Below are positions 35,194 to 64,000 of a stretch of DNA of 64,000 nucleotides, piece after piece (positions within the stretch are counted from its first letter, which is position 1; each line of letters starts with the position of its first letter). The notes under the pieces were generated by a model. It searched no databases, was not told where the DNA came from, and saw only the letters and a list, made by a program, of their open reading frames with translations. Made by a program: the position numbers and the translations under genes. The stretch is from Rhodanobacter sp. DHB23 (GTDB lineage: Bacteria > Pseudomonadota > Gammaproteobacteria > Xanthomonadales > Rhodanobacteraceae): positions 1 to 64,000 of the forward strand of contig NZ_JACYXK010000017.1 of NCBI RefSeq assembly GCF_014842975.1. The letters run 5' to 3'.

Positions 35194-36438
35194 TCACACG
35201 CTGCGCGTGGCGACCACCGGCGGCACGCGGGATGCCCGCCGCGCCGGCACGAACACCGCCGCCTGCCCCAGCAGCAGCATGGCAACCATGCCGGCCAGCA
35301 CGTAGGCGGTGGGCAACCGCTCGAGCGCGTAGCGGTGCATCAACCAGAAGTTGAAACCAATCGCCAGCAACAGGCCCAACGCGGCGCCCATCCCTGCGAT
35401 GAAAAGGTTTTCGAGCTGGAAATACCGCAGGATGTCGATCCTGCGCGCACCCAATGCACGGCGCACGCCGATCTGCTTGCGCCGCTGACCCACCCAGAAG
35501 CTGGTGAGGCCGACGATGCCGGCGGCGGTGACACACAGCAGGATCAGGCAGATCGCGCCCATCAACAGCGCCATGCCGCGGTCGGCACGATAGACCTTGG
35601 CCCGGATTTCGGAGAACGGCTGGACACCCCAGCTGTCCGGCATCAGCCGCATCGGATCGACCGCCAGCAACGCCTTGCGCGCCTCGCGCATCACGGCCTG
35701 CTCGCGGCCCGGCTTCGCGCGCAGCGCATAGCTGGCCGCGGCACCGTCCAGGCGCATCGGCTCCAGCACCGAGTTGTACGACCAGCCGCTGCCCCAGGCC
35801 GACAGCGTCGGCGTCTGCAACCGCCGCACGATGCCGACGATGGTCGCCGGCTTGCCGTCCTGGTAGATCGTCTTGCCCAGCGCGCCGCCCCGTGGAAACA
35901 GCGCATCCGCCACCGGTTGGCTCACGATGACCACGGACGAACCGGCCGTGCCGCGGATCGCGCGGTGCTGGATTTCGCTGGCCGTGAAGTCGCGCCCCGC
36001 AACCAGTTGCAGGCCGAGCGTGCTGCGCAGATGTTCGTCACCGTAGTAGTAGGCCGCCTGCACGTTCGGCGCTGTCGGCTGCGGCACAAGCGTGAGGTAG
36101 CCGCTCCAGATCATGCCTTGCAGTGGCATGCTGGCGGAGGCCGCGACCTGCTGGACATCGGGCAGGCCGCCCAGCACGGCGAGATCCGTGCGTTGCATGG
36201 CGTCCAGTTGCTCGACGGCGGCGGCATCGTCGCCCACCGGCGCGTCCAGCCATTGTTGCGAAATGCGGACCAGGCCAGCTTCGGCCACACCGGTCGGGCG
36301 ATCGATGCGCACCATGCGCTGGCCGATGATGAAGGTCGCGTTGCAGACGATCGCCAGGGTCAGCGCGATCTGCAGCGCGATCAACCCGACACCGGTCTTG
36401 TGGGGGCGCAGGGCGGCGAGGATCGGGTGCAGTCTCAT
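35194..36438 (-). CDS. MacB/FtsX-type ABC permease, B subunit of pair 1
   Basis: The 414-residue product has TM1 at about 20-42, a ~235-residue periplasmic MacB_PCD domain, and an FtsX unit with TM2-TM4. The cytoplasmic segment after TM2 reads FWVGQRRKQIGVRRALGA and should contact an ATPase. The C-terminus is VPPVVATRSV, as in most B subunits. In the periplasmic domain RISQQWLDAPVGDDA is close to VSQQWVGAPAGDDA of B10, making these sister genes. It follows A1 by 10 bp. It is the last permease gene of the array before the regulator. Confidence 0.9.
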   Translation of the reverse strand: MRLHPILAALRPHKTGVGLIALQIALTLAIVCNATFIIGQRMVRIDRPTGVAEAGLVRISQQWLDAPVGDDAAAVEQLDAMQRTDLAVLGGLPDVQQVAASASMPLQGMIWSGYLTLVPQPTAPNVQAAYYYGDEHLRSTLGLQLVAGRDFTASEIQHRAIRGTAGSSVVIVSQPVADALFPRGGALGKTIYQDGKPATIVGIVRRLQTPTLSAWGSGWSYNSVLEPMRLDGAAASYALRAKPGREQAVMREARKALLAVDPMRLMPDSWGVQPFSEIRAKVYRADRGMALLMGAICLILLCVTAAGIVGLTSFWVGQRRKQIGVRRALGARRIDILRYFQLENLFIAGMGAALGLLLAIGFNFWLMHRYALERLPTAYVLAGMVAMLLLGQAAVFVPARRASRVPPVVATRSV

Positions 36439-36448
36439 CGCATTCCCC

Positions 36449-37771
36449 TCATTGCGTCTTCAACTGCCACGCGGGTTGCACGCGCGAAGCCCGTATCGCC
36501 GGATACAGGCCGGCCAGCATGGTCGCCAGCACGGCCACCGCCACGGCGAGCAAGAGCAGGCTCACGTCCACATGCGCCAGGCCGGTCAGGTCCATGGGCA
36601 GCACCTGGTCGGCCGCAAGCACGCCGAACCCGGTCAGCAACAGACCAAGCATTCCACCGGCCATGCCTATCACCGCGGCCTCGGCGAGGAACTGCATGCA
36701 GACCGCGCTGCGCGAGGCTCCCAACGCGCGGCGCACGCCGATCTCTCCGCTGCGTCGCAGGAACTTCGTCAGCAGCAGCCCCACCGTGTTGAGCAGACAC
36801 ACCAACAGCAGACCCAGGGCCACCAGCATCGATACCCTGGTGTCGTCGGGCACGATGTGTTCGTGGTCCAGCCAGGCCCGCAGGCCGCGCAGCCGGTTGT
36901 CGGGCGACCAGCCGAAGCGGCCGAGCCGCTGCTGTTCGCGCGCATACTCGTCGAGGTATTGCCGGTAACCGCGCACCGCCGCCGCATCATCCAGTTCGGC
37001 CATGTAGACGATCCACGTGCAGGCCGACGATTGCAGGCCGGCGAAACCCGGCGCGGCCGGCGTGCCGCCCTTCGGGCAGTTGGTGCTGCCGGCGTTCTCC
37101 ATGCCGGCTGCAATGGCGGCCTGGAAGGGCAGGAACAGATCGGGGCCGTCGCCGCCGAAACCGCCGGTGTCCACCACGTCGAAGAACGCCGGCTGCGGGT
37201 TCCATGGCTTCATCACGCCGACCACGCGGTAGCCGCGCCCGTCGATGCCCACCGTCCTGCCCACACTGTTCGCACCGCCGAACAGCCTGCGGTTGAGCGC
37301 ATCGCCGATCACCGCCACGGGCGCGCCGCGCGCATCGTCCCCCGAGCCCCAGCCGCTGCCGTATTCGAACGGGACATCCAGCATCGGGAAGAACTCGCCA
37401 TACACCGCGAAGCCATCCAGCGGAATCGGCGTGCGGCTGGCGTCCGTGGGCAGCACCGAAGGGGCTACGGCATAGATCGCCGATTGCCGTGCGGCACGGT
37501 GATCGCGCATCAGGGCCATCGCATCGGCGTAGGCCAGCGCATCCTGCGGCTCGCCGCTCCCGCCACGCTCCGCCGGCCCCCATGCGTCGATCTGCGGCAC
37601 GAACAAACGGGATGACTTCCATGGGATCGGGTCTCCCGATACTGCACGGAATACCGCGTAGGCCGTCATCGATGCACCCACGCCAAAGCCGATGGCAAGC
37701 ACCATCAACAGGGTGAGCCCCATGCTGCGGCGCAGGCTGCGCACGGCGATTTCAAGGTAGTAGCCGAACAT
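36449..37771 (-). CDS. MacB/FtsX-type ABC permease, A subunit of pair 1
   Basis: The 440-residue product starts MFGYYLEIAVRSLRR, as A subunits do, and has FLRRSGEIGVRRALGA as its coupling segment. The stretch FRAVSGDPIPWKSSRLFVPQ after TM1 is shared almost exactly with A10 and with no other A gene. The periplasmic cysteine pair is C232 and C251. The start at 37771 excludes an upstream frame of REP DNA. No ATPase domain is present. Confidence 0.9.
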   Translation of the reverse strand: MFGYYLEIAVRSLRRSMGLTLLMVLAIGFGVGASMTAYAVFRAVSGDPIPWKSSRLFVPQIDAWGPAERGGSGEPQDALAYADAMALMRDHRAARQSAIYAVAPSVLPTDASRTPIPLDGFAVYGEFFPMLDVPFEYGSGWGSGDDARGAPVAVIGDALNRRLFGGANSVGRTVGIDGRGYRVVGVMKPWNPQPAFFDVVDTGGFGGDGPDLFLPFQAAIAAGMENAGSTNCPKGGTPAAPGFAGLQSSACTWIVYMAELDDAAAVRGYRQYLDEYAREQQRLGRFGWSPDNRLRGLRAWLDHEHIVPDDTRVSMLVALGLLLVCLLNTVGLLLTKFLRRSGEIGVRRALGASRSAVCMQFLAEAAVIGMAGGMLGLLLTGFGVLAADQVLPMDLTGLAHVDVSLLLLAVAVAVLATMLAGLYPAIRASRVQPAWQLKTQ

Positions 37772-37794
37772 CCATCCCCCTTTGTCTCGTGCCT

Positions 37795-37871
37795 GCAGGA
37801 GCGCACCCTGTGCGCGATTGCCTTTGCTTCGATCAAGCATCGGAGCCATCGCGCACAGGGTGCGCTCCTAC
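37795..37871. repeat. REP-like palindrome, copy 8 (between pair 2 and pair 1)
   Basis: It runs from GCAGGAGCGCACCCTGTGCG to GGTGCGCTCCTAC. The minus-strand TAG at 37870-37868 is the stop codon of permease B2. Confidence 0.9.
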
Positions 37872-39106
37872 ACCGACCGCGTCGCCACCACCGGCGGCAC
37901 GCGCGCGGCACGCAATGCCGGCGACAGCACGGCGAGCTGGCCGAGCAGCAGCATCAGCGCCGCGCCATATGGCAGGTAGGTCCACGGCAGGCGCGCCAGC
38001 TCGTAGTGGTGCATCAGCCACAGGTTGATCGCGTAGGCCAGCGCCATGCCGAGCAGGATCCCGCCGCCCACCACCAGCAGGTTCTCCAGTTGCACGTCGC
38101 GCAGGATGTTGCCGCGGCGCGCGCCCAGCGCGCGGCGGATGCCGATCTGCCGCGTGCGTTGCTGCACCCAGTAGCTGGTCAGGCCCATGATGCCGACCAC
38201 GGTGACCAGCAGCACGATCAGGCTGACGCCGGACAGCAGCCACACCGCGGCCTTCGGCTGCGCCATCTGGCGTTCGCGCATGTCGCCGTACATCTCGTAG
38301 GCGGGGTCGATGCCCTGGATCATCTCGGGACCGAGTTCGCGCTTGAGCGTGGCCTTGGCCGCCTTGAGCACGCCGTCCACCTCCGCGGCCGAGCGCGCCC
38401 GCAGCGCGAATATCGGCATCGGCCAGTTCGTGGGTATGCTCGGGAACAGCATGCTGTAGTCGATGTCCTCGCGGTCGTCCTGGCCGAACTTGTTGCGCAT
38501 CAGGTGCTCGACCACGCCGACCACGGTGCGCCGTCCCGCGTCCGCGGCATCGCCCAGGCGCAGCACATGGCCCAGCGCGTCGCCACCGGGGAACAGCCGC
38601 TCCGCCAGTGCGCGCGTGATGATCGCCGGCCCGTTCTCGTCGAGGCCCATGCCCTTGTACGACACGCCTTCCTCGGCGGCGCTGAAGTCGCGCCCCGCCA
38701 CCAGCTTCAGGCCCAGCGTGTCGCGCAGATGGGTGCCGATGTAGACCGCGGTATCGGCCTTGGCCGGGTGGGCGCCTTCGCCGTACACGCCGCCGTTCAT
38801 CTGCGCCACGGTCTCCATCGGGAAGGAGCCGGCCACGCTGACCGAGCCCACTCCGGGAATGGCGCGCAGTTCCGCCGCGACCTGGTCGAGTCGGCTGGTC
38901 GGCCAGGGCTGGCCGCGCGGCGCGATGTTCCACGCCACGATCAGGCGATCCGGGTTCCCCACGCCGTCCGGGGACACGATGGGCACCAGTTTCTGCTGCA
39001 GCAGGAACAGCGCGTTGCACGCGATGGCGCAGGCCAGCGCCACCTGCAGCAGCACCAGCAGCGGCATCATGCGATGGCGGAACAGCGGCTTGATGATGTG
39101 TCGCAT
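37868..39106 (-). CDS. MacB/FtsX-type ABC permease, B subunit of pair 2 (divergent)
   Basis: The 412-residue product opens MRHIIKPLFRHRMMP, unlike the HPILSALRRHK-type start of the other B subunits. It is otherwise complete: TM1 with ACAIACNALFLL, a long periplasmic domain, the coupling segment QQRTRQIGIRRALGARRGNI, and the VPPVVATRSV end. With A2 it forms the most divergent pair of the array. The stop codon is supplied by REP copy 8. It follows A2 by 10 bp. Confidence 0.9.
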   Translation of the reverse strand: MRHIIKPLFRHRMMPLLVLLQVALACAIACNALFLLQQKLVPIVSPDGVGNPDRLIVAWNIAPRGQPWPTSRLDQVAAELRAIPGVGSVSVAGSFPMETVAQMNGGVYGEGAHPAKADTAVYIGTHLRDTLGLKLVAGRDFSAAEEGVSYKGMGLDENGPAIITRALAERLFPGGDALGHVLRLGDAADAGRRTVVGVVEHLMRNKFGQDDREDIDYSMLFPSIPTNWPMPIFALRARSAAEVDGVLKAAKATLKRELGPEMIQGIDPAYEMYGDMRERQMAQPKAAVWLLSGVSLIVLLVTVVGIMGLTSYWVQQRTRQIGIRRALGARRGNILRDVQLENLLVVGGGILLGMALAYAINLWLMHHYELARLPWTYLPYGAALMLLLGQLAVLSPALRAARVPPVVATRSV

Positions 39107-39116
39107 GGCGGTTCCC

Positions 39117-40436
39117 TTACGCGATCTTGATCTGCAACGCCGGCGGCTGCCGGCACACGCGCCATGCCGGCAGGATGCCGACCAGCAGGCCCACGCCCAC
39201 CGAGAGCGCGAACAGGATGACGAACACGCCCGGGCTGAAACGCGCGGCCTCCGCGTAGCTCACCGGCTGCATGCGCACGATCCACAGCCCCAGCCAGGTC
39301 AGCGGCAGCGCCAGCGCGCCGCCGATCAGGCCCAGCAGCCCGGTCTCGACCAGGTGCTGCACGAACACGTCGCGCCTGGAGGCGCCCAGCGCGCGGCGGA
39401 TCGCCACGTCGCCCTGCCGGCGCAGGAAGCGCGCGGCCAGCAGGCCCGCCACGTTGACCAGGCACAGCAGCAGGAAGGCGCCCGCCAGCATCAGGTTGAG
39501 GTGCACGTCGTCCGGCACCACGCGGTTCAGCGTCATCCACGCCTGCGTGCCGTACAGCTTCGCCTGCGGCGGATAGGCGAAGCGGCCGGCATCGTGCTGG
39601 GCATCCGCGTAACCGGCAAGGAAGCGGCCGTAGTCGGCCAGCTGCGACGGCGTGTCCAGCCGCACCCAGGTCTCCATCCAGCGGCACTGCGCCACCGCCG
39701 CCGACTGGAAGCTGACCACCGGCGCCCCCTTGCCGCATTCGCCCGCGATGAGCGGCCCCACGCCCGCGTCCAGCGCGGCCTGCGCCGGCACGAAGAAGTT
39801 CTCCTCCTGCCCCATCACGCTGCCGGCGTTCTCGGCCAGGTTGAAGATCTGCACGCGCGGCTTCCATTCGCCGGACACGCCGATCACGCGGAAGCTGCGC
39901 TGCCCCAGCATGACGCTGCGGCCGACGGCGTCCTCGGTGCCGAACAGCTTCTGCGCCACGTGCGTGTCGATCACCAGCACCGGCGCATTCGCGGCCAGTT
40001 CGGCCTCGGTCCACGGCCGCCCGTAGCGCAGCGGCACGCCCAGGGCCTGCACCGCCAGCCCGTAGGCCATCAGGCCATAGGCCTGCTCGGATTTCCTGCC
40101 GTCCATGTCGCCCAGCAGCGTGAGGCTCTGCGCCACCGCCACCTGCTGCACGGCGCGATGCGCGTCCACCAGGACCCTGGCGTCGACCAGCTTGAGCAGA
40201 CTGTCGGGCTGCTTGTAGTCGGGGTTATCCTTGTCCACTTCCTCGCGCGCGTCCATCGTCGCCACGTAGAGGTACGGGCTGACGCCGGGCAACGGCGCGC
40301 CGGACAGCGCGCGGAAGATGGTCATCGCCGTCATGCACGCGGCGATGCCGATGGCCATGGTCAGCACCAGCAGCAGCACCATCGGCACGTTCTGCCGGCA
40401 GCGGCGCAGGGCCAGGCGCAGGTAGTAGTCGAACAT
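39117..40436 (-). CDS. MacB/FtsX-type ABC permease, A subunit of pair 2 (divergent)
   Basis: The 439-residue product begins MFDYYLRLALRRCRQN. Its coupling segment is FLRRQGDVAIRRALGA, with GDVAI where other A subunits have GEIGV or GELSV, and the C-terminal PALQIKIA is also atypical. The cysteine pair is kept (C234, C251). GGAG lies before the ATG at the usual distance. This pair may use the same ATPase less tightly, or a different one. Confidence 0.9.
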   Translation of the reverse strand: MFDYYLRLALRRCRQNVPMVLLLVLTMAIGIAACMTAMTIFRALSGAPLPGVSPYLYVATMDAREEVDKDNPDYKQPDSLLKLVDARVLVDAHRAVQQVAVAQSLTLLGDMDGRKSEQAYGLMAYGLAVQALGVPLRYGRPWTEAELAANAPVLVIDTHVAQKLFGTEDAVGRSVMLGQRSFRVIGVSGEWKPRVQIFNLAENAGSVMGQEENFFVPAQAALDAGVGPLIAGECGKGAPVVSFQSAAVAQCRWMETWVRLDTPSQLADYGRFLAGYADAQHDAGRFAYPPQAKLYGTQAWMTLNRVVPDDVHLNLMLAGAFLLLCLVNVAGLLAARFLRRQGDVAIRRALGASRRDVFVQHLVETGLLGLIGGALALPLTWLGLWIVRMQPVSYAEAARFSPGVFVILFALSVGVGLLVGILPAWRVCRQPPALQIKIA

Positions 40437-40460
40437 CCATCACTCCTTCATTTCGTTTCC

Positions 40461-40538
40461 GCAGGAGCGCACCTTGCGCGCGAATGCCTTGATGCCGGAT
40501 CAAAGCCAAGGGCATTCGCGCACGGGGTGCGCTCCTAC
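40461..40538. repeat. REP-like palindrome, copy 9 (between pair 3 and pair 2)
   Basis: The left arm is partly decayed (GCAGGAGCGCACCTTGCGCG) while the right arm is GGGGTGCGCTCCTAC. The TAG at 40537-40535 on the minus strand is the stop codon of permease B3. Confidence 0.88.
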
Positions 40539-41773
40539 ACCGTCCGCGTCGCCACCACCGGCGGCACGCGCGACGCGCGCAGCGCAGGACCGAGCACGGC
40601 GCACTGCCCCAGCGACCACAGCACGACGGCGCCCGAGGCCAGCCACGCCAGCGGCATGTGCGCCAGCTCGTAACGCCGCATCAGCCACAGGTTCAACCCG
40701 ACCGCGCCGAGCGAGCCGACCGCGATACCCATCGTGACGATCAGCAGGTTCTCGAACTGGAAGTAGCGCAGGATGTCGCGCCGCGTGGCGCCGATGGCGC
40801 GGCGGATGCCGATCTGCCGCGTGCGCTGCTGCACCCAGAAGCTGGACAGGCCCACCACGCCCAGTGCGGTCAGCGCCAGCAGGCAGCCGGTGACCACCAG
40901 CAGGACCCAGACCATGGCGCGGTCGCCGTGGTAGTAGTCCGCGATGGTATCGGCGTAGATCTCCGCCTTCACCATGCGCGCGGGGTCGATGCGGGTGAGC
41001 ACGCCGGGCAGGTCGCGCGCGACCGCGCCGCGCATGTCCGGCCTCACGTTCAGTACGTACACGCCACCGACCAGCCTGGTCGACGGCAAGATCATGTTGC
41101 GGTCCGCGCCCTGGTATTTGGTGATGCGCGGATTGAGCAGATGGCCGGTCACCCCCACCACCTGCACGGGCTCCTTGCCGTCGCTGTCCAGCCAGAAGGT
41201 TTTCCCCAGCGGGTTCTCGCCGGGCCAGAGCGCCTCGGCCAGCGTGTGCGTGACGATGGCGGCCGTTGGCGGCGGCGCCTTGCTGTCCGGACTGCCAAAG
41301 AGGCCAGGGGTGTAGGGCACATAGTCCTGCGGCAGGAAATCGCGCCCCGCCGACAGCTTGATGCCCAGCGTATGCAGCAGGCCGGGCGTTCCCGCGTACT
41401 CGACCACGTTGTCGATTTCGCTTTTCTTGTCGCCGGGGCGGCGCCATGCTCCCACGCTCATGTAGTTGCGACTCAACGGCAGCGTGTTGGCCATCGCCAC
41501 CGACTCGACGCCGGGCATGCCGCGCAGGGCGGCCAGGTCGGCATCGATATCGGCGCCCATCCTGGTGTCCTGCCCAAGGTCGAGGCCGGTGGTGCGCGCC
41601 CACACCAGTTCATGGTCGGCCACACCGGTGACCACGCGCATGGCCGCCACGCGGTCGCCGATCAGGAACAGCGCATTGGTGACGATGGCGCAGGTCAGCG
41701 CGATCTCCAGCGCCACCAGTACGACGGTGGTCTTGTGGTGCTTCAGGGCGGAAACGATGGGATGCATGCTCAC
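40535..41773 (-). CDS. MacB/FtsX-type ABC permease, B subunit of pair 3
   Basis: The 412-residue product starts MSMHPIVSALKHHKT and has the coupling segment QQRTRQIGIRRAIGATRRDI. It ends VPPVVATRTV, one residue off the common tail. The periplasmic domain carries a Lys/Asp-rich region near 115-135 (PGDKKSEIDN) not seen in other B subunits. It lies only 4 bp after A3, the tightest non-overlapping pair. Its stop is inside REP copy 9. Confidence 0.9.
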   Translation of the reverse strand: MSMHPIVSALKHHKTTVVLVALEIALTCAIVTNALFLIGDRVAAMRVVTGVADHELVWARTTGLDLGQDTRMGADIDADLAALRGMPGVESVAMANTLPLSRNYMSVGAWRRPGDKKSEIDNVVEYAGTPGLLHTLGIKLSAGRDFLPQDYVPYTPGLFGSPDSKAPPPTAAIVTHTLAEALWPGENPLGKTFWLDSDGKEPVQVVGVTGHLLNPRITKYQGADRNMILPSTRLVGGVYVLNVRPDMRGAVARDLPGVLTRIDPARMVKAEIYADTIADYYHGDRAMVWVLLVVTGCLLALTALGVVGLSSFWVQQRTRQIGIRRAIGATRRDILRYFQFENLLIVTMGIAVGSLGAVGLNLWLMRRYELAHMPLAWLASGAVVLWSLGQCAVLGPALRASRVPPVVATRTV

Positions 41774-41777
41774 GTCC

Positions 41778-43082
41778 TCATTGTGTCTTCAGCAGGCGGG
41801 CCGGCACGATGCGGCAGGCCCGCCATGCCGGGAACAAGGCCGCCAGCAAGGCGGCGCACACGGCCAGCACGAAGGTGGCGGCGAGCATGGCCCCGTCCAT
41901 GTGCGCAAACGCCGCATATTCCACCGGCTGCTGGCGCACGACCCACAAGCCGAAGGCCGCCAGCAGCAGCCCCACGGCGCCACCCGCCAGGCCGACCAGC
42001 GCAGCCTCCACCAGCAACTGCGCGAACACCGCGCGTTTCGAGGCGCCCATGGCGCGGCGCACGGAGAGCTCGCCGCCGCGGCGCAGGAACTTCACCAGCA
42101 GCATCGCCACCGTGTTGACCAGGCACACCAGCAGGAAACCCAGCGCCAGAAGGGTCTGCAGCTGCACGCTGCCCGGCACCACGTGGTTGTAGTCCAGCCA
42201 TTGCATCACGTCGCGCAACCGTACGTTCGGCGGTCGCGCAAAACGGCCCAGCGCCTTCTGCTGTTCCGAGTAGCCGGCGAGAAAGTCGCGATAGGAGGCG
42301 ACTCGCGCCGGCGTGTCCAGTTGCACCCAGAACTGCACCCAGGCGCACCCGTTGGCCTTCGTCATGTCGCCGTCCGTCGGGAAATCCCCCCAGCACATCA
42401 TGCTGCCCTGGGTGCCCTGCTTCAGCTCCATGGCCGTCTCGAACGGCAGGAATACCTGTTCCGGCTTGGCGTAGCTGCCCATCGAGAGATCGTAGAAATG
42501 CGGTGCCGGGTTCCAGTCGTCGAGCACGCCGACGACGCGGAAGTCGTACTTGCCCAACCGCAGCAACTGGCCCACCGCATGCGGCGTGCCGTAGAGCTTG
42601 TCGGCCAGCTCGCGCGCGATCACCGCCACGCGCGCATGCTTGTCGTCGTCGCTGGCCGCCCAGCCGCCGCCATCGGCGAACGGCACGTCGAACATCGGAA
42701 AGAAATCCGCCGTGGCGTAACGGGCATCCGCAATGAAGGCGTGCGTCGCCCCCTGTGGCGGCACCACCGTCACCCGGCCGGCCGACATCGCCGCCTGGCG
42801 CACGCCCTTGCGCGCATGCAGCAGGCTCATCGCATCGAGCCACGTCAACTGGTCCGGCGGATCGCTGGCCTTGCTGTAGCCCTCCATGCCCTGTGGATCG
42901 ACCTGCGGATAGAACAGCTGCCCGCTGCGCCCCGGGATCGGGTCGGCCGTCATCACGTGCAGCACCGTGATCATCGTCATGCTGGCGCCGATGCCCAGCG
43001 CGATGGCCAGCACCATCAGCGTGGTGAGCACCTTGTTGCGCCCGAGACTGCGCCAGGCCAGGTCGAGGTAGTAGCCGAACAT
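41778..43082 (-). CDS. MacB/FtsX-type ABC permease, A subunit of pair 3
   Basis: The 434-residue product begins MFGYYLDLAWRSLGRNK. It has the coupling segment FLRRGGELSVRRAMGA and the conserved post-domain stretch QQKALGRFARPPNVRLRD before TM2. The cysteine pair is C230 and C246. The C-terminus VPARLLKTQ lacks the PALQLK form of its neighbours. AAGGAG precedes the start. Confidence 0.9.
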   Translation of the reverse strand: MFGYYLDLAWRSLGRNKVLTTLMVLAIALGIGASMTMITVLHVMTADPIPGRSGQLFYPQVDPQGMEGYSKASDPPDQLTWLDAMSLLHARKGVRQAAMSAGRVTVVPPQGATHAFIADARYATADFFPMFDVPFADGGGWAASDDDKHARVAVIARELADKLYGTPHAVGQLLRLGKYDFRVVGVLDDWNPAPHFYDLSMGSYAKPEQVFLPFETAMELKQGTQGSMMCWGDFPTDGDMTKANGCAWVQFWVQLDTPARVASYRDFLAGYSEQQKALGRFARPPNVRLRDVMQWLDYNHVVPGSVQLQTLLALGFLLVCLVNTVAMLLVKFLRRGGELSVRRAMGASKRAVFAQLLVEAALVGLAGGAVGLLLAAFGLWVVRQQPVEYAAFAHMDGAMLAATFVLAVCAALLAALFPAWRACRIVPARLLKTQ

Positions 43083-44501: not shown

Positions 44502-44528
44502 TCCATCGCGCGCAGGGCGCGCTACTAC
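44502..44528. repeat. Partial REP-like element at the A4 stop
   Basis: CCATCGCGCGCAGGGCGCGC followed by TACTAC matches only the right arm of the REP family. It still provides the TAG stop codon of A4 at 44527-44525. Confidence 0.65.
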
Positions 44529-56235: not shown

Positions 56236-57528
56236 CTAATTCGACTTGATCGCGGCGGCGGGCGCCACCTGCATCGCCCGCCATGCGGGCAGCAGGCCGG
56301 CCAGCAGGCTGCTCGTCAGGGCCAGCACGAACGTGCCCAGCAGCATGCGCAGATCCATATGGATGAACGCCGCGTAGTCGGTGGGCTGGTGGCGCACAAG
56401 CAGCATGCCGAGCCCGGCCAGCGCCAGCCCGAACACGCCGCCGACCAGGCCCACCACACCGGCCTCGATCAGGCATTGCAGGAAGATCGCGCGCCGCGAT
56501 GCACCCAGCGCGCGGCGCACGCCAAGCTCGCCGCTGCGGCGCAGGAACTTCGCCAGCAGCAAGCCCACGGTGTTGAGCAGGCATATGCCGAGGAACCCAA
56601 GCGCCAGCCACATCTGCAGGCGCACGTCGGAGGGCACCACGCCCTTGAAGTCCAGCCATTGCATCACGTCGCGCAGATCGGCCTGGCCGGAATGGTGGAA
56701 GCGGCCCGCCTGCTGCTGCAGGGCGATGTAGTTGCCGAGGTATTGGCGGTAGGCCGACACCTTGGCCGGCGTATCCAGCTGCACCCAATACTGCAACCAC
56801 AGGCAGGGCGCGTCCGCCGCCTGCATGTCGTTCGAGTTCCCCCAGCACCACATGTTTCCGCTGGCGCTCAGCTTCATGTCCTCCGCCGTGGACAACGGCA
56901 TGAACACGTCTTCGCTGTCGCCGAACTGGCCGTTGCTCAGGTCGTAGAAACGCGGATTCATGTCCCATTCGCCCAGCACCCCGACGATGCGCAGCCCCTG
57001 GTCGCCCACCTTCAGCGTCTGCCCCACGCTGTCCTTGCCGCCGAACAGCTGCTCGTTCAACGCACTGGAGATCACTGCGACGCGTGCGCGATTGGCATCG
57101 TCGTCGGGCCCCCACGCGTGGCCGTAGCGCAACGGCACGTCGAACATGGGGAAGAAACCCGCGCCGGTGTAGCGCGCCTGCACCCATTGCGGATCGCCCT
57201 GCACCGGCGTCACCGCCATCGAGCCGGCCGACATCGCCACCTGGCGATCGCCACGCGTGTCGTGCAACAGCGCCTCGGCATCGCGCCGGGCCAGGTTGTC
57301 GGGCACGTCGTCGCCCGCGCGGAAACGATCATCGGGAAACACATTCATGCGCACGCGGAACAGCTGCGCGCTCTTCTGCGGGATCGGGTCGCCCGACAGC
57401 ACGTGCATCACCGTCAACGTGGTCATGCTGGTGCCGATGCCCAGCGCGATGGTCAACACCATCAGCGCCGTGAGCACCTTGTTGCGCCTGAGGCTGCGCA
57501 GTGCCAGATCGAGGTAGTAGCCGTACAT
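56236..57528 (-). CDS. MacB/FtsX-type ABC permease, A subunit of pair 8
   Basis: The 430-residue product begins MYGYYLDLALRSLRRNK, with Tyr for the usual Phe2. The coupling segment is FLRRSGELGVRRALGA and the cysteine pair is C228 and C242. After TM1 it reads FRVRMNVFPDDRF where most A subunits have a Y-x-P/A-Q-x-D/N-P form, so the N-terminal part of its periplasmic domain is distinct. The C-terminus is PAAAIKSN. AAGGAG precedes the start. Confidence 0.9.
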   Translation of the reverse strand: MYGYYLDLALRSLRRNKVLTALMVLTIALGIGTSMTTLTVMHVLSGDPIPQKSAQLFRVRMNVFPDDRFRAGDDVPDNLARRDAEALLHDTRGDRQVAMSAGSMAVTPVQGDPQWVQARYTGAGFFPMFDVPLRYGHAWGPDDDANRARVAVISSALNEQLFGGKDSVGQTLKVGDQGLRIVGVLGEWDMNPRFYDLSNGQFGDSEDVFMPLSTAEDMKLSASGNMWCWGNSNDMQAADAPCLWLQYWVQLDTPAKVSAYRQYLGNYIALQQQAGRFHHSGQADLRDVMQWLDFKGVVPSDVRLQMWLALGFLGICLLNTVGLLLAKFLRRSGELGVRRALGASRRAIFLQCLIEAGVVGLVGGVFGLALAGLGMLLVRHQPTDYAAFIHMDLRMLLGTFVLALTSSLLAGLLPAWRAMQVAPAAAIKSN

Positions 57529-57548
57529 GCCGCACTCCTTCTTGATCT

Positions 57549-57572
57549 CCCTCTCCTGCAAGCGGGAGAGGG
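57549..57572. repeat. Short CTCTCCT/GGGAGAG hairpin between pairs 9 and 8
   Basis: CCCTCTCCTGCAAGCGGGAG followed by AGGG forms a hairpin in the 50-bp gap between B9 and A8. Confidence 0.75.
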
Positions 57573-57578
57573 AAGAAC

Positions 57579-58799
57579 TCAAACCGACCGTGTCGCCACC
57601 ACCGGCGGGACGTTTGAAGCGCGCAGCGCAGGGCCGAGCACCGCCAGCTGGCCGAGCAGCCACAACGCCACCGCGCCAACCAGCAGGTAATGCGCCGGCA
57701 GGTGGGGCAGTTCGAAGCGCTGCATCAGGAACAGGTTCAGCGCATAGGCGAACAGCACGCCAAGCAGCACGCCACCGGTGACGATGAGGAAGTTCTCGGC
57801 CTGGAAGTAATGCCGGATGTCGCCGCGCGTGGCGCCCAGCGCGCGGCGCATGCCGATCTGCCGGCGCCGCTGCTGCACCCAGAAGCTGGCCAGCCCGCTC
57901 ACGCCCAGCGCGGTCACCACCAGCAGGATGACGATGATCGCCACCAGCATGCGGCCGGCGGCGAGCGAGCTCCTGAAGTAGCCCTCGCGCAGTTCGGCCA
58001 TCGTGTACAGCTTGTTCTGCACGTGGCCGGGGTTGGCCTTCTGCAGGGCGGCGGCAGCGGCGTGCAGCGCCTCGGGCAGCCGGCCCGGCTGGCTGCGGAC
58101 GAGGAAACCGCCGCCCACGTCCTGGGTGCTGACGTGGTACTCGTAGACCAGCGAATCGTCGTCGCCGGCGCTTCCGGTGAGCTCGCCCCGCAGGTGGTCC
58201 ACGATGCCGATGACGCGCAGGCCGTGCGTGCCGTCGTAAAGGATGCGGCCCAGCGCGCTGCCATCCGGGTACAGGCGCCTGGCGAGCGATTCCGTCAGCA
58301 GCGCCGGGATCGGCGCGGTGGCCTTGCCCATGTAGACGTCCATGGCGTCGGGCAGTTCGCCGTCGTCGAAGTCGTGCCCCTGCACCACGCGCAGGCCCAG
58401 CGTGCTGTTCAGGTGCTGGCTGCCCTGGAACTCATAGGCATGCAGCGCGGGATGCTGCCGCGATGCATCGAGGAAGAGCGGGTTGTGGTCCACCCACCAC
58501 AGCGGCAGCGAACCGTAGGCGGCATCCGCCACGCCGGGTGCGGCGCGCATCGCCGCGAGGTTGCCCGCGACCGTGCCCGGGTTGTCCTGGCCGATCACGC
58601 CGATGCTCTGGATCAGGCCGATCTCGCTCTCCGCCACGCCCGTCGGCTCGTGCGAACGCTGGATGGTGCCGTACACGATGAACACCAGGTTGCCGAGCAC
58701 CGCCATGGTCAGCGCGATCTCCAGCATCAGCAGGACCACCGCGGCGCGGTGGCTGCGCAGGGCGGCGAGGATGGGACGTATCTGCCGGTGGATCCTCAT
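57579..58799 (-). CDS. MacB/FtsX-type ABC permease, B subunit of pair 9
   Basis: The 406-residue product starts MRIHRQIRPILAALRSHR at 58799, overlapping the A9 stop by 4 bp (ATGA), the only overlapping pair. TM1 reads ALTMAVLGNLVFIV, without the cysteines usual there. The coupling segment is QQRRRQIGMRRALGATRGDI and the tail is VPPVVATRSV. The periplasmic domain is Asp/Gly-rich near 145-160 (HDFDDGELPDAMD). Confidence 0.9.
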   Translation of the reverse strand: MRIHRQIRPILAALRSHRAAVVLLMLEIALTMAVLGNLVFIVYGTIQRSHEPTGVAESEIGLIQSIGVIGQDNPGTVAGNLAAMRAAPGVADAAYGSLPLWWVDHNPLFLDASRQHPALHAYEFQGSQHLNSTLGLRVVQGHDFDDGELPDAMDVYMGKATAPIPALLTESLARRLYPDGSALGRILYDGTHGLRVIGIVDHLRGELTGSAGDDDSLVYEYHVSTQDVGGGFLVRSQPGRLPEALHAAAAALQKANPGHVQNKLYTMAELREGYFRSSLAAGRMLVAIIVILLVVTALGVSGLASFWVQQRRRQIGMRRALGATRGDIRHYFQAENFLIVTGGVLLGVLFAYALNLFLMQRFELPHLPAHYLLVGAVALWLLGQLAVLGPALRASNVPPVVATRSV

Positions 58800-60106
58800 A
58801 GCGACTTCACCTGCAGCGCGGGGGCCACGCGGGAAGCGCGCAGCGCCGGCCATACGCCGGCAGCCAGCGCCGACAGCACGGCCAGCGCCAGCGCCGCGCC
58901 CAGCATGGATGGATCGAAACGCGCGGACGCGGCGAAACTCACCGGCTGCTGGCGCACCATCCACAGGCCCAGCCAGGCCAGCGGCAGGCCGAGCAGGCCA
59001 CCGGCCACGCCCACCACCCCGGCCTCGACCAGGCATTGCAGGAACACCATGCGGCGCGAGGCACCCAGCGCGCGGCGCACGCCGATCTCGCCCGACTTGC
59101 GCAGGAACTTGGCCACCATCAGCCCCACCGTGTTGACCATGCAGATCAGCAGCACGCCGAAGGCGATCCAGGTCTGCATGCGCACCGTCACCGGGATCAC
59201 GCGCTTGTAATCCAGCCAGTCGACCAGCCCGGCCAGCCGCACGTTCGGCGGACGCTGGAAACGCCCCAGCCGATGCTGCTGCGCGCTGTACTGGACGAGC
59301 GCGGCGCGGTAGCCCGCCACCTGCGCCGGTGTATCCAGCTGCACCCAGAACTGTGCCCAGGTGCATTGCTGCGCCTTCGGGTCGTGCATGCCCGCGTTCG
59401 GGTCGTTGCCCCAGCAGTCCATCGGGCCGTAGCCGTAGTCCTGCGGCAGGTCCAGCCAGGTGAAGAACGGCAGGTACATCTGCTCGGCCTTGCCGAAAGC
59501 GCCGTCGTTCAGGTCGTAGAAGCGCGGCTGCGGGTTCCAGTCGTCGACCACGCCTGCCACGCGGAAGGTCTTGGTGGCGATCACCAGGTTCCTGCCCACG
59601 CTGTCCTCGCCACCGAACAGTTGCTGGTTCATCGCCCGCGACAGCACCACCACCTGCGCGTGGCTGGCGTCGTCCTGCGCCGACCAGGCGGAGCCGTAGA
59701 TGAAGGGCACGCCGAACATCGCGAAGAAGTCGGCGGTGGTGGCACGGTCGGTAACCATCGCCAGCGGGCTGTCCTGCGCATCCTTGCGCACCGGCAGCCA
59801 GTTGCTGCTCATCAGCGCGCGACGCGGCGCGACGCCGAGCTGGTAGAGGTTCACCGCATCGAGATAGCTGAGGTCGTCCGGCGGCTCGTCCTTCGCGCCC
59901 GGCAGATCGGCCGGGCGGGGATCGACCTGCGGATGGAACAGCGCGTCGCTGCGCCCCGGCAGCGGATTGCCCGACAGGTTGTGCAATACCGCCAGCATGG
60001 TGATCGACGCGCCGATACCCAGCGCGATCGCCAGCGTCATCAGGCCGGCGAGCACGGGCGTGCGCCTGAAACTGTGCAGCGCAAGGTCGAGGTAATAGCC
60101 GAACAT
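58796..60106 (-). CDS. MacB/FtsX-type ABC permease, A subunit of pair 9
   Basis: The 436-residue product begins MFGYYLDLALHSFRRTP. The coupling segment is FLRKSGEIGVRRALGA and the cysteine pair is C231 and C248. The longer frame upstream of 60106 is repeat DNA. It is translationally coupled to B9, supporting an obligate A/B complex. Confidence 0.9.
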   Translation of the reverse strand: MFGYYLDLALHSFRRTPVLAGLMTLAIALGIGASITMLAVLHNLSGNPLPGRSDALFHPQVDPRPADLPGAKDEPPDDLSYLDAVNLYQLGVAPRRALMSSNWLPVRKDAQDSPLAMVTDRATTADFFAMFGVPFIYGSAWSAQDDASHAQVVVLSRAMNQQLFGGEDSVGRNLVIATKTFRVAGVVDDWNPQPRFYDLNDGAFGKAEQMYLPFFTWLDLPQDYGYGPMDCWGNDPNAGMHDPKAQQCTWAQFWVQLDTPAQVAGYRAALVQYSAQQHRLGRFQRPPNVRLAGLVDWLDYKRVIPVTVRMQTWIAFGVLLICMVNTVGLMVAKFLRKSGEIGVRRALGASRRMVFLQCLVEAGVVGVAGGLLGLPLAWLGLWMVRQQPVSFAASARFDPSMLGAALALAVLSALAAGVWPALRASRVAPALQVKSL

Positions 60107-60125
60107 GCCCACTCCTTCGTTGGTT

Positions 60126-60296: not shown

Positions 60297-60298
60297 CA

Positions 60299-61552
60299 TC
60301 ACGCCGCCCGCGTCGCCACCACCGGCGGCACGTTGGAAGCGCGGCGGGCGGGGGCGAATACCGCGCCCTGCCCCAGCGCCAGCACCATGGCCACGCCGGC
60401 CAGCACGTAGAGCACGGGCATGCGGTCCATCTCGTAGTGCTTCATCAGCAGCAGGTTGAGGCCGATCGCCAGCGCCACCCCGGCCACCGCGCCGATGCCG
60501 GCGATCAGCAGGTTCTCCATCTGGAAGTAATGCAGGATGTCCGCCTTGCGCGCGCCCAGCGCGCGGCGCACGCCGATCTGGCGATGGCGCTGGCCCACCC
60601 AGAAGCTGGTGAGGCCGACGATGCCCGCGGCGGTGACGCCGAGCAGGATCAGGCAGATCACGCCCATCAGCGCGGCCATGCCGACGTCGGCGCGGTAGGC
60701 CTCCTTGCGGATGTCGGCGAACGACTTGACGCTGTCGTCGTCGAGCACGCGCATCGGGTTGGCCTTGTACAGCGCCGGCGTCACCTCGCGCATCGCCGCC
60801 TGCAACCGGCCCGGCCTGGCGCGCACGGCATAGCGGGAGAAATTGGCGTTGAGGCGCACCGGCTCGATCGTCGCGTTCCACGTGAAGGCGCTGACCCAGC
60901 CGCCGGTGGCGGGCACCTGCAGGCGCTCGACCTCGCCGATGATGGTGCTCGGCGTGCCGCTGCCGTCGAGGTAGATGACCTTGCCGAGCGCATCGCCCTT
61001 CGGGAACAGCTTGTCCCCCAGTGCCTTGGTCACCAGGATCATGCCGGGCTCGGTGGTGTTGCGGAAACCCTTGTTGATGACGTCGCCCGCATTGAAGTCG
61101 CGCCCCGCGACCAGGTGCAGGCCCAGCGTGCGCAGGAAGTTCTCGTCGCCGAAGTAGTAGGTGGTGCGCGCATTGCCGCCGATCAGCTTGGCGTCGGCGT
61201 TGATCGACGCCGAGCCGTTCCAGCTCGAGTTGAGCAGCGGCAGCGAATTGGTCGGCGTCACCGATTCCACGTCGGGCAGCGCGCGCAGCGTGGCGAGGTC
61301 CTCGCGCTGCAGCGCATCCAGCTTCTGGATGCTGTCCGCGTCGTCGCCGGCGGGCGCGCCCACCCATTGCTGGCTGACCAGGAACAGATCCTGTTCGTTG
61401 AGCCCGGTGGGGCGGTTCACGCGCTGGATGCGCTGGCCGATGATGAACACCGCGTTGCAGACGATGGCCAGGGTCAGCGCGATCTGCAGGGCGATCAGCA
61501 CCACGCCTGCCTTGTGCTTGCGCAGCGCGGAGATCATGGGATGAATGGTCAT
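60299..61552 (-). CDS. MacB/FtsX-type ABC permease, B subunit of pair 10
   Basis: The 417-residue product starts MTIHPMISALRKHK at 61552 and ends VPPVVATRAA. The coupling segment is VGQRHRQIGVRRALGARKADI. It groups with B1 and the partial B11 by its ITSALA-like TM1 (ALTLAIVCNAVFIIG) and the SQQWVGAPAGDDADSIQ stretch. It lies 154 bp after A10, the widest gap within a pair, because a repeat has entered there. Confidence 0.9.
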   Translation of the reverse strand: MTIHPMISALRKHKAGVVLIALQIALTLAIVCNAVFIIGQRIQRVNRPTGLNEQDLFLVSQQWVGAPAGDDADSIQKLDALQREDLATLRALPDVESVTPTNSLPLLNSSWNGSASINADAKLIGGNARTTYYFGDENFLRTLGLHLVAGRDFNAGDVINKGFRNTTEPGMILVTKALGDKLFPKGDALGKVIYLDGSGTPSTIIGEVERLQVPATGGWVSAFTWNATIEPVRLNANFSRYAVRARPGRLQAAMREVTPALYKANPMRVLDDDSVKSFADIRKEAYRADVGMAALMGVICLILLGVTAAGIVGLTSFWVGQRHRQIGVRRALGARKADILHYFQMENLLIAGIGAVAGVALAIGLNLLLMKHYEMDRMPVLYVLAGVAMVLALGQGAVFAPARRASNVPPVVATRAA

Positions 61553-61575
61553 GTGGGAACCCTCATTGTTTGTTG

Positions 61576-61697
61576 GCTCCCCTCTCCCGCAGGCGGGAGA
61601 GGGGTTGGGGGAGAGGGCGCTTTTTGTGATGCCGCAAAAAGCCGGACCCTCTCCCGCCCTGTCGGGCACCCTCTCCCGCCCGTGGGAGAGGGGATCA
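61576..61697. repeat. CTCTCCC/GGGAGAG repeat between A10 and B10
   Basis: The left hairpin CCCTCTCCCGCAGGCGGGAG and the right arms CCCTCTCCCGCCC and CCTCTCCCGCCCGTGGGAGA flank a core with GCGCTTTTTGTGATGCC and its complement GCAAAAAGCC. It is the only full-size repeat that separates two subunits of one pair. Confidence 0.8.
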
Positions 61698-61706
61698 GCA
61701 GACCGC

Positions 61707-63032
61707 TCAGTTCGACTTCAATTGCCACGCCGGCTGCACGCGCGAAGCGCGCCAGGTGGGGTACAAGCCCGCCAGCACGGTGGCGACCACCGCCAGCAGC
61801 AACGTCGTGGCCAGCAGCGACACGTCCAGCCTCGCCAGCGCGGCGATGTCCTTCGGCAGCACCCAACCCACGCAGGCCACGCCCGCGCCGGTGAGCAGCA
61901 GGCCCAGCACGCCGCCCGCCGCGCCGACGATGCCCGCCTCGGTGAGGAACTGCGCGTACACCGCCGCGCGCGGCGCGCCCAGCGCGCGGCGCACGCCGAT
62001 CTCGCCGCTGCGGCGCAGGAACTTCGCCAGCAGCAGGCCTGCCGTGTTCACCAGGCAGACGATCAGCAGGCCCAGCGCCACCAGCAGCGACACCTTGGTG
62101 TCGTCGGGCACCACGTGCTCGGAGTCCAGCCATGCGGGCAGGTCGCGCAGCTCGTACTTGGGTGCCCAGTTGAAACGGCCGGCCTGCTTCTGCTGGCGCA
62201 TGTAGCCGTCGAGGTAGTTCCTGTAGCTGTCCACGTCGGCGGCGCTGTCCAGCTCGACCATGTAGGCGATCCACACGCAGGTGGATTGCTGCAGGCCGAC
62301 GAAGCCGGAGCCCTTGGGGATCTCGCTGCAATTGGTGTTGCCGTTGTTGGGCATGCCCACGTCGATGGCGGTGTTGAACGGCAGGAACACGTCCTCGGCG
62401 CCGTCGCCGACGAAACCGCCGGTGTTGACCACGTCGTAGTAGCGCGGCTGCGGGTTCCACTTGGCGACCACGCCGGCCACGCGGTAATCCTTGCCTTCGA
62501 TGCTCACGCTCCTGCCCACGCTGTTGACGTCGCCGAACAGCTTCTGGTTGAGCTTGTCGCTGAGCACCACCACGTGCGCGCGGTTCGCGTCGTCCTGCGC
62601 GCCCCAGCCGCTGCCGTACTTGAACGGCGCCTCCACCATCGGGAAGAACTCGCCGAACACCGCATGGCCGGTGACGTTGATCGGATGCTTGGTGGCGTCC
62701 GCCGGCACCACCGAGGGCGACACCTGGTACATCGCCGACTGCAGCTTGCCGCGGTGGTCGCGCATCAGCGCCACCGCGTCGGTGTAGTCGAACGCGTCGG
62801 CGATGTCGTCGTAGCCGCCCTTCTTGCGGCTGTCCGGCCCCCAGATGTCGAGCTGCGGCACGAACAGCCTGGACGATTTCCACGGGATCGGATCGCCCGA
62901 CACGGCGCGGAACACCGACCACGTGGTCATCGAGGCCGCCACGCCGAAGCCGATGGCGAGCACCATCAGCGCGGTGAGGCCGGGGCTGCGTCTCAGGCTG
63001 CGCAGGGCCAGGTCGAGGTAGTAGGCGAACAT
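61707..63032 (-). CDS. MacB/FtsX-type ABC permease, A subunit of pair 10
   Basis: The 441-residue product begins MFAYYLDLALRSLRRSP and has FRAVSGDPIPWKSSRLFVPQ after TM1, shared with A1. The cysteine pair is C235 and C252, with the surrounding NCSEIPKGSGFVGLQQ again like A1. The coupling segment is FLRRSGEIGVRRALGA and the C-terminus is VQPAWQLKSN, matching PAWQLKTQ of A1. Pairs 1 and 10 are therefore sister modules at opposite ends of the visible array. Confidence 0.9.
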   Translation of the reverse strand: MFAYYLDLALRSLRRSPGLTALMVLAIGFGVAASMTTWSVFRAVSGDPIPWKSSRLFVPQLDIWGPDSRKKGGYDDIADAFDYTDAVALMRDHRGKLQSAMYQVSPSVVPADATKHPINVTGHAVFGEFFPMVEAPFKYGSGWGAQDDANRAHVVVLSDKLNQKLFGDVNSVGRSVSIEGKDYRVAGVVAKWNPQPRYYDVVNTGGFVGDGAEDVFLPFNTAIDVGMPNNGNTNCSEIPKGSGFVGLQQSTCVWIAYMVELDSAADVDSYRNYLDGYMRQQKQAGRFNWAPKYELRDLPAWLDSEHVVPDDTKVSLLVALGLLIVCLVNTAGLLLAKFLRRSGEIGVRRALGAPRAAVYAQFLTEAGIVGAAGGVLGLLLTGAGVACVGWVLPKDIAALARLDVSLLATTLLLAVVATVLAGLYPTWRASRVQPAWQLKSN

Positions 63033-63056
63033 TTCATTCTCTCCTCAAGTTTCGAC

Positions 63057-63086
63057 TCCCCTCTCCCGCAAACGGGAAAGGAGGTT
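63057..63086. repeat. Short CTCTCCC/GGGAAAG hairpin between B11 and A10
   Basis: CCCCTCTCCCGCAAACGGGA followed by AAGG lies in the 61-bp gap, again at a module boundary. Confidence 0.7.
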
Positions 63087-63093
63087 AAGAACG

Positions 63094-64000
63094 TCACACC
63101 GAGCGCGTCGCCTCCACCGGCGGCACGCGCGAGGCGCGCAGCGCCGGGGCCAGCACGGCACCCTGTCCGAGTAGGAGCAGCACGACCACGCCCGCCACCA
63201 CGTAACCCGGCGCGATCCGCGCCAGCTCGAACTGCTTCATCAGCCACAGGTTCAGGCCCAGTGCGAGCACGCTGCCGACCAGCACGCCCACCGTGCTGAT
63301 AAGCAGGTTCTCGGTGAGGAAATAACCGAGGATGTCGTGCCGCGTGGCGCCCAGCGCACGGCGCACGCCGATCTGCTTGCGGCGCTGTCCGACCCAGAAG
63401 CTGCTGAGCCCCACGATGCCGGCCGCGGTGATGGCCAGCAGCACCACGCTGATGACGCCCATCAGGATCGCCATGCCACGATCGCTCTTGTAGGCATCCG
63501 CGCGGATCTCGGCGAAAGTCCGCACGCCGTCCTTCGGGCTGATCACCCGCATGCGGTTGGCGGCATACAGCGCCGCGCGCACGTGGCGGCGCACGTCTTC
63601 GAGCTGCCCCGGCCGCACCCGCAGCACGTATCGCGTGGCCGCGGTCAGCTGCCGGTACGGGACCAGGGTCGAACAGTCGGCCCACTCGGCCATGCCGCTG
63701 TCCACCCAGGGCGACTGCAGGCGCTCGACGATGCCCACGATGGTGCTCGGCTGCCTGCTGATGTAGGCGGTCTTGCCCAGCGCCGAGCCATCGGGGAACA
63801 GGCGGTCCGCCAGCCCGCGCGTCACGATGATGGCGCCGGGCTGGATATCGCCGTGCCGGTCGACCTGGCCGATCTCGTCGGCGCGGAAGTTGCGGCCCGC
63901 CACCAGCTTCAGCCCCAGGGTCGGCAATGCGTCCTGGTCCGCGAAATAGATCGCGGTGGTCGATACGGGCTTGAGCTTGTCGGGGGAATGGCCGATGCCG
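63094..64000 (-). CDS. MacB/FtsX-type ABC permease, B subunit of pair 11 (cut by window edge)
   Basis: The frame is open to the right edge, so the start lies outside. About 301 residues are visible: most of the periplasmic domain (LKLVAGRNFRADE near the cut), TM2-TM4, the coupling segment VGQRRKQIGVRRALGATRHDI and the end VPPVEATRSV. It resembles B1 and B10. An A11 gene would be expected just beyond the edge. The TTG at 63927 is internal and not a start. Confidence 0.9.
   Translation of the reverse strand, partial: GIGHSPDKLKPVSTTAIYFADQDALPTLGLKLVAGRNFRADEIGQVDRHGDIQPGAIIVTRGLADRLFPDGSALGKTAYISRQPSTIVGIVERLQSPWVDSGMAEWADCSTLVPYRQLTAATRYVLRVRPGQLEDVRRHVRAALYAANRMRVISPKDGVRTFAEIRADAYKSDRGMAILMGVISVVLLAITAAGIVGLSSFWVGQRRKQIGVRRALGATRHDILGYFLTENLLISTVGVLVGSVLALGLNLWLMKQFELARIAPGYVVAGVVVLLLLGQGAVLAPALRASRVPPVEATRSV

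Follow-up and report, generated by a model that had tools for sequence, protein, structure and literature searches.

One ATPase gene heads a tandem array of twelve split MacB/FtsX permease pairs in Rhodanobacter sp. DHB23

The window analysed here, bases 1-64000 of the 91.6-kb contig NZ_JACYXK010000017.1 (hereinafter designated C13) of Rhodanobacter sp. DHB23, contains the greater part of a tandem array of permease genes of the four-transmembrane (4-TM) MacB/FtsX kind. The full array crosses the window edge and comprises 12 alternating A-B pairs, 24 permeases in all, on the minus strand behind single genes for a HlyD adaptor, an ATP-binding cassette (ABC) ATPase and a TolC-type channel. Based on gene content and order, on A and B forming couples, on the single ATPase gene of each array, on a conserved promoter with an upstream palindrome and on a lone pair found elsewhere in a related genome, we favour the reading that the locus is an inducible efflux operon, part of a regulon, in which one ATPase-adaptor-channel set would drive a repertoire of heterodimeric permease heads from the periplasm to the outside.

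Organization of the array

In the order of minus-strand transcription, the cluster consists of the HlyD adaptor (C13 70707-71978), the ABC ATPase (C13 69831-70556) and the TolC-type channel (C13 68443-69786), all three identified by profile search, then the twelve A-B pairs (68254 to 35194), an NtrC-type response regulator (33765-35105; Pfam Sigma54_activat, 4.7e-65, and Response_reg), a short secreted-looking open reading frame (ORF) of 108 aa (33141-33467) and a histidine kinase with HAMP domain (31756-33150; Pfam HATPase_c and HAMP), which by eye has two N-terminal TMs and a very short periplasmic loop. A short ORF of similar kind occupies the position between regulator and kinase in all four relatives whose sequences were inspected.

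Within the window, 20 permease genes are complete and the edge truncates one more, the 21st; all lie on the minus strand and alternate between A and B, in agreement with the first-pass annotation of this stretch. The ten complete modules and partial eleventh counted there are correct for the window, and the true total beyond the edge is twelve. Its statement that the array lacks an ATPase and an adaptor likewise applies to the window stretch and fails just beyond the right edge, upstream in transcription, where HlyD, ATPase and TolC-type channel are found. The "orphan" character is an effect of the window edge, since the array head 4-8 kb beyond it encodes both ATPase and adaptor, the ATPase gene lying where the annotation had guessed it to be. 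The stretch is also not made up purely of permeases, as an alpha/beta hydrolase gene (45915-47075) stands between two pairs. One ATPase gene per module, an arrangement named in advance as contradicting a shared ATPase, is not what we see: no ATPase gene lies between modules inside the DHB23 array, and none is labelled inside the arrays of relatives.

Distribution among relatives

All 11 of the other genus genomes that were fetched have the array cluster, and together with DHB23 they make up the genus sample (G007, G010 and G011, fragmented or small, were left out). A survey of copy number, as suggested earlier, gives 5-11 pairs in these other genomes: 11 in G003, 9 each in G008, G009 and G013, 8 in G001, 7 each in G002, G004 and G014, 5 in G006, and at least 6 in G005 and at least 11 in G012, whose arrays run off the fetched stretch. 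Whatever the pair number, there is one ATPase gene per array in the 10 genus arrays with the head in view (DHB23 included). HlyD is followed by the ATPase in 22 of 23 named loci, the remaining locus (L018) ending at HlyD; a channel gene is not labelled in G002, in one set of 18 heads and in 8 of the 22 named loci that extend beyond the ATPase. The closest named relative by HlyD is Rhodanobacter sp. 7MK24 (97%). MacB matches on contig C44 of G005 are mirrored about the middle of this 182,054-base contig (twice 91,027), which probably reflects an assembly artefact, the sequence being duplicated in inverted orientation.

At wider range, an A-type permease is present in 139 of 147 family, 144 of 250 order and 7 of 274 class genomes (three of the seven being DHB23 and two others of the same order), with per-genome counts in these and one further survey limited to at most 11, 6, 6 and 4 scored candidates. 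Loci of a second family are mostly minimal, with the order HlyD-ATPase-A-B-regulator-kinase in 9 of 15 (one with an extra permease); one genus of this family has 5 pairs in three loci and 3 pairs in one locus. In a midpoint-rooted module tree, some deep branches of which are weakly supported, the modules of the second family's arrays are placed in several different clades of the first family, indicating that module types predate the families or moved between them. Separate expansion in each family was rejected because the multi-pair genus of the second family falls with several first-family clades.

Permease fold and relation to ADOP

In the profile check proposed by the first-pass annotation, FtsX is matched in 24 of 24 array permeases and MacB_PCD in 20 (A, 12/12; B, 8/12, the exceptions being B4, B9, B10 and B11). 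Structure models of A6 and B6 (pLDDT 89.6 and 93.4, respectively) predict one N-terminal TM, a periplasmic domain of ~235-260 residues and three C-terminal TMs, the topology previously read from the letters. The predicted placement of the periplasmic domain between TM1 and TM2 is that of the MacB 4-TM fold, and the best Foldseek match of both models is the Acinetobacter MacB 5gko. The same two proteins score 34.0 (A6) and 37.9 bits (B6) against PRK10535, the profile of ATPase-fused MacB, compared with a cut-off of 966.

Within the DHB23 array, identity is 35-57% between B proteins, 16-25% between A and B, and 33-65% between A proteins, on account of which recent tandem duplication was rejected. 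Conservation is unevenly distributed along the chains: paralogues (12 A and 11 of 12 B) share 72-76% identity in the coupling-helix loop versus 30-40% in the periplasmic domain, with B2, which spans the window edge, absent from the B region alignment and the A region boundaries fixed before the A6 model existed. A conserved loop beside a diverged periplasmic domain is only compatible with a shared ATPase and would be expected in any such family.

ADOP permeases form large paralogous families in Acidobacteria; the name includes "orphan", and the family is described as having no associated ATPase. All 12 A proteins match the NCBIfam profile of this duplicated permease, TIGR03434, within positions 5-413 and all 12 B proteins within 402-802. 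A therefore corresponds to the N-terminal and B to the C-terminal half, and the pair looks like a split ADOP, which bears out, at the family level, the parallel drawn before. Single A and B proteins score 120-192 bits relative to a cut-off of 622.3 and are therefore not classed as ADOP. In some second-family genomes a third permease type of 390-401 aa follows the last B (L068:6395-7600, L071:17058-18233, L076:17363-18535); the one scanned, from L071, matches the ADOP C-terminal half.

A-B couples, module types and selection

Distances among A proteins and among their B partners correlate with r = 0.91 over 151 pairs (A score >380, B score >330, gap <400 bp), whereas shuffles within genomes give a mean of 0.07 and a maximum of 0.17 in 1000. 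For the DHB23 array alone the correlation is 0.81, reached in 0 of 5000 shuffles. Free exchange of A with B is rejected by these correlated distances, according to which A-B pairs are fixed couples at the level of module type.

The 12 genus genomes together hold 100 modules, which group into 23 types when the threshold is set at 70% mean identity; members of a type share 80% identity, and different types of the same genome 45%. Just 2 of the 12 arrays contain any type twice; in the 11 arrays with the head in the set, one type stands first and another second or third. The number of types keeps rising with each added genome, and DHB23 and G008 share 6 types although their HlyD proteins are 97% identical.

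The ratio of nonsynonymous to synonymous substitution rates (dN/dS) is 0.12-0.46 in 38 of 38 comparisons with three relatives, indicating purifying selection, and is higher in the periplasmic part in 34 of them. Reading frames are intact in 24 of 24 array permeases, and decay into pseudogenes, the other outcome that was to speak against a functional array, is rejected on both counts. Single damaged genes do occur in relatives (an A with a stop in G123, a shortened 329-aa B in G008). Between G000 and G008, dS ranges from 0.12 to 0.68 across modules (12 comparisons, the second type C copy left out) versus 0.17-0.36 in head and tail genes; this several-fold spread between modules of the same two genomes suggests module exchange between lineages.

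A sigma-54 promoter and palindrome mark a putative regulon

A sigma-54 promoter (C13 72023-72038) lies upstream of HlyD, and a perfect palindrome, TGTCCGCGGACA (C13 72105-72116), begins 78 bp further up. The locus thus has the parts of a sigma-54/NtrC system, namely a regulator with receiver and sigma-54 activation domains and, at the head, a -24/-12 promoter with an upstream dyad. Across 46 distinct heads of the two families (51 rows minus five loci counted under two labels), a sigma-54 site of at least 10/11 is found in 43, and the palindrome is exact in 41 (starting 64-80 bp upstream), has one mismatch in 2 and is absent in 3. From this linkage and conservation we infer that the palindrome is the likely binding site of the NtrC-type regulator.

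The DHB23 genome (3.97 Mb) contains the palindrome at three places and its backwards control at none. The second site lies in the promoter of a gene for a 67-aa single-TM protein, together with an 11/11 sigma-54 site, and recurs in 5 of 6 genomes. Genes of this ~67-aa family (L091:6268-6603; L092, L098, L102, L104), often two in tandem behind palindrome and sigma-54 promoter, adjoin a divergent M16 peptidase gene in 4 of 5 genomes and have homologues in 13 of 15 genus genomes; a Pfam scan of one such protein returned no match. Two relatives contain one more palindrome, which together with a 10/11 promoter points towards a degenerate gene related to the 67-aa one. The third DHB23 site, in the gap between tetR and pcm-tolC (L011 near 3245), is without a sigma-54 site and recurs in 6 of 6 genomes with extra sites read (also L093, L095, L099, L101, L103). 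Altogether 16 extra palindrome sites were read, 8 of which have, within 250 bp, a sigma-54 match of at least 10/11. In G004 and G005 the palindrome also stands beside 69-aa genes, cold-shock-like by eye (L100 near 5407, L106 near 5719), possibly by chance.

A one-mismatch palindrome at window position 48895 is at chance level, and sigma-54 promoters between modules were rejected as a rule, there being merely scattered 9-10/11 matches. Through the palindrome, the putative regulon, its inducer and further members become directly accessible.

Pairs outside the array and a second operon with one ATPase

In G009, a lone type-E A-B pair on contig C33 carries its own palindrome and an 11/11 sigma-54 promoter. 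Type E is absent from the G009 array and present in seven other arrays. The 11 kb read around the pair contain no ATPase, and no ABC signature motif appears in six frames; the six neighbours are a DUF817 protein, a beta-lactamase-type protein, a glycosyl hydrolase, a weakly PagL-like protein, a major facilitator superfamily (MFS) transporter and an HlyD-type partner. We regard this pair as the strongest single piece of evidence for a pair used with an ATPase encoded elsewhere. DHB23 itself has three more A-B pairs without a neighbouring ATPase (C29, L011:6244-11541; C19, L013:7025-9618).

A second operon, on DHB23 contig C17 (L010:1008-14040), encodes HlyD, one ATPase and three tandem fused 8-TM permeases of ADOP length, and ends with matches to an NtrC-type regulator and a kinase. 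Two of the fused permeases pass the TIGR03434 cut-off (656.5 and 645.2) and the third, at 609.3, does not. A 10/11 sigma-54 site lies 11 bp before the HlyD gene; the relaxed palindrome dyad sought at C17 is absent. With the C13 array, the plan of one ATPase and several permeases therefore occurs twice in DHB23.

Individual array genes and neighbourhood

With gene starts set by a simple codon model trained on array genes, the modules beyond the window are A1 (C13 66938-68254), B1 (C13 65689-66927) and A2 (C13 64331-65647), and B2 occupies window positions 63094-64000, its gene extending to C13 64320. There follow, all on the minus strand, A3 (61707-63032) and B3 (60299-61552), A4 (58796-60106) and B4 (57579-58799), A5 (56236-57561, the start being uncertain between TTG at 57561 and a later codon) and B5 (55002-56225), A6 (53646-54953) and B6 (52328-53563), A7 (50968-52275) and B7 (49728-50957), and A8 (48386-49675) and B8 (47130-48341). 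Beyond the hydrolase gene come A9 (44525-45835), of module type C, and B9 (43230-44462), A10 (41778-43082) and B10 (40535-41767), A11 (39117-40436), the most diverged A, and B11 (37868-39106), and finally A12 (36449-37771) and B12 (35194-36438), the last permease at the 3' end.

The hydrolase between modules 8 and 9 matches Pfam Hydrolase_4/Abhydrolase_1 and has, by eye, a signal-peptide-like N-terminus. It lies directly upstream of the type C module in all 4 arrays that have it among the 12 genomes, and the pair it precedes is the only one of the 12 DHB23 pairs with an accessory gene beside it. Non-permease ORFs also stand between modules in G002 (L059:1393-1791, 4430-4962) and G006 (L062:12688-13179); judged by eye, they are likely a DUF559/Vsr-like ORF in both genomes and a toxin-antitoxin pair in G002.

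Genes for SPFH, NfeD-like and ThrE-like proteins follow the kinase (window 28414-31616), likewise in several relatives. SPFH/NfeD genes also lie near ybbAP-tesA in Escherichia coli, a likeness that is possibly coincidence. Upstream of the array head is a pair encoding a TonB-dependent receptor and a tetratricopeptide repeat (TPR)-sulfotransferase (L009:8358-12994, where L009 is C13:64001-84000), which some relatives have and others lack.

A proposed mechanism and its alternatives

In the mechanism we propose, the kinase would sense a disturbance of the envelope and activate the NtrC-type regulator, whose binding to the palindrome would start sigma-54 transcription. The single ATPase, expressed from the end nearest the promoter, would dock on the conserved coupling helices of any A-B heterodimer, and each heterodimer, by its own diverged periplasmic domain, would take a class of compound of its own out of the periplasm or the outer leaflet. 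MacB-like mechanotransmission could then push the compound into the HlyD adaptor and TolC channel that all heads would share. In the portion of PMC5985334 available, Type VII transporters such as MacB are described as moving no substrate across the inner membrane; ATP moves their periplasmic domains, which push substrates into adaptor and channel. The substrates might be antimicrobial peptides or other envelope-active hydrophobic compounds from soil competitors, and defence against such compounds fits the variable, non-redundant repertoire best. The 67-aa membrane protein might conceivably modulate the pump, by analogy with AcrZ and AcrB.

That one ATPase serves many heads, already suggested by the first-pass annotation, fits the single ATPase gene in 10 arrays, the lack of interspersed ATPase genes, the lone G009 pair and purifying selection, and we infer the sharing itself from these features. 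We consider as finely balanced the wider proposal of a variable, inherited set of Type VII heads that would draw their energy in trans from a single ATPase with its adaptor and channel and would be gained, lost, exchanged and even moved to other loci as promoter-bearing cassettes under one sigma-54 regulon.

Several observations weigh against this reading. Coupling helices are usually more conserved than periplasmic domains in such transporters, and their identity is no higher within the genome (A, 72%; B, 76%) than across families (A, 73%; B, 79%), so that ATPase sharing is not singled out by this conservation. The nearest A and nearest B elsewhere share one module in only 86 of 151 cases, which places the coupling at the type level and not with every closest relative. 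With respect to the regulon, the exact palindrome is missing from 4 of the 16 genomes searched (G012 and three others), the backwards control matches once in each of 3 of the 15 relatives, and the extra sites lacking a good sigma-54 site comprise 6 tolC sites and the 2 beside 69-aa genes. The C29 and C19 pairs also lack the palindrome-promoter combination, and near the lone G009 pair the opposite strand carries an HlyD-type gene that belongs to a separate transporter of the MFS type. In the G013 array the reading frame of the ATPase is interrupted (L046:6624-7350), by sequencing error or in reality, and no telling cargo gene adjoins the DHB23 array to hint at a substrate.

The main rival to defence, which we hold to be a good deal less probable, is dedicated export, each pair handling a single product that the cell itself makes (a secreted peptide, lipoprotein or glycolipid) with motor and exit shared, as DevBCA and the darobactin exporter each serve one product. 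The best named model for the array ATPase is DarD (252.9 bits, cut-off 375) and the adaptor also matches DarC (77.6 bits, cut-off 450), both below cut-off; one module type is accompanied by a secreted-looking hydrolase in 4 of 12 genomes, and the 67-aa protein, whose gene has the same promoter and palindrome, could be the precursor of a peptide. Weighing against dedicated exporters are the presence of an accessory gene beside only 1 of the 12 DHB23 pairs and pair sets that differ between relatives as close as DHB23 and G008. No radical SAM gene was found among the 20 array and neighbouring proteins scanned, and precursor peptides were not searched for.

The pairs could also be detectors more than transporters and pass their signal to the short-loop kinase in the manner of BceAB and BceS, and the kinase, almost devoid of a periplasmic domain by eye, is indeed reminiscent of intramembrane-sensing kinases such as BceS. 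A sensor array would agree with the sigma-54 promoter and palindrome upstream of the head, and Type VII transporters acting as sensors with two-component systems are known from the available part of a review. We nevertheless think it unlikely, because HlyD, which a pure sensor would not need, accompanies the pairs in the heads examined, and because a single kinase behind 5-12 pairs would no longer tell which signal had arrived. Least plausible of all, and already disfavoured, is a selfish or neutral tandem amplification producing redundant copies without distinct roles. The tandem layout, the copy number varying between relatives and the single broken or shortened genes in G123 and G008 speak for it, but the DHB23 array holds no recent duplicates (highest A-A identity 65%, B-B 57%), types are rarely present twice, dN/dS stays below 0.5 throughout, and module clades are common to several genera and two families.

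If true, the wider proposal of heads energised in trans would mean a plug-in efflux system across Xanthomonadales, and would suggest how "orphan" ADOP permeases elsewhere are powered. Up to twelve couples per ATPase, species-specific sets of heads and a lone pair turn the one-ATPase-many-permeases question into a testable one, and the same locus does so for the powering of orphan, ADOP-type permeases.

Comparison with known systems

In the parts of reviews at hand, each permease unit of Type VII ABC systems is paired with its own ATPase. Searches of titles and abstract openings, in which subscription papers were mostly outside the scope, yielded no paper on tandem MacB/FtsX arrays, ADOP, sigma-54 control or Xanthomonadales homologues describing such an array, nor did those on the darobactin exporter; in the accessible portion of the PMC3162934 text the words MacB, ABC, efflux and permease do not occur. 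The likeness to darobactin exporter DarBCD lies in the DarD and DarC matches of ATPase and adaptor, both below cut-off.

With ADOP the array shares two permease units homologous to the two halves of the fused protein, 24 of 24 array proteins matching the expected half; it differs in that the halves are separate genes and that ATPase and adaptor are present in its own gene row. The array's alpha/beta hydrolase belongs to another enzyme family than TesA. YbbAP-TesA resembles the array in that a Type VII transporter is associated with a hydrolase of the periplasm (PMC12646458, in part), with the secreted-looking hydrolase beside the type C module in 4 of 12 genomes as the counterpart; its permease is fused, with two linking TMs (excerpt of PMC5985334), whereas those of the array are split.

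LolCDE likewise has a single separate ATPase and two unlike MacB-type subunits of four TMs each (excerpt of PMC5985334) but works without adaptor and TolC, and the array ATPase scores 215.2 bits against the LolD equivalog, below the cut-off of 307.75. The fold of both array permeases, the HlyD/MacA-type adaptor and the TolC-type channel have their equivalents in MacAB-TolC, a Type VII tripartite pump; in the DHB23 operon, by contrast, the ATPase is a separate protein, the permease is a putative heterodimer and there are up to 12 pairs per ATPase. The closest published parallel that we found is DevBCA-HgdD of Anabaena, with a separate ATPase, a MacB-type permease, an adaptor and a TolC homologue, HgdD, which according to the available part of PMC8277102 works with at least seven paralogues of DevBCA. 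In that system the paralogues are complete sets of three genes, whereas in the array only the permease pair is multiplied.

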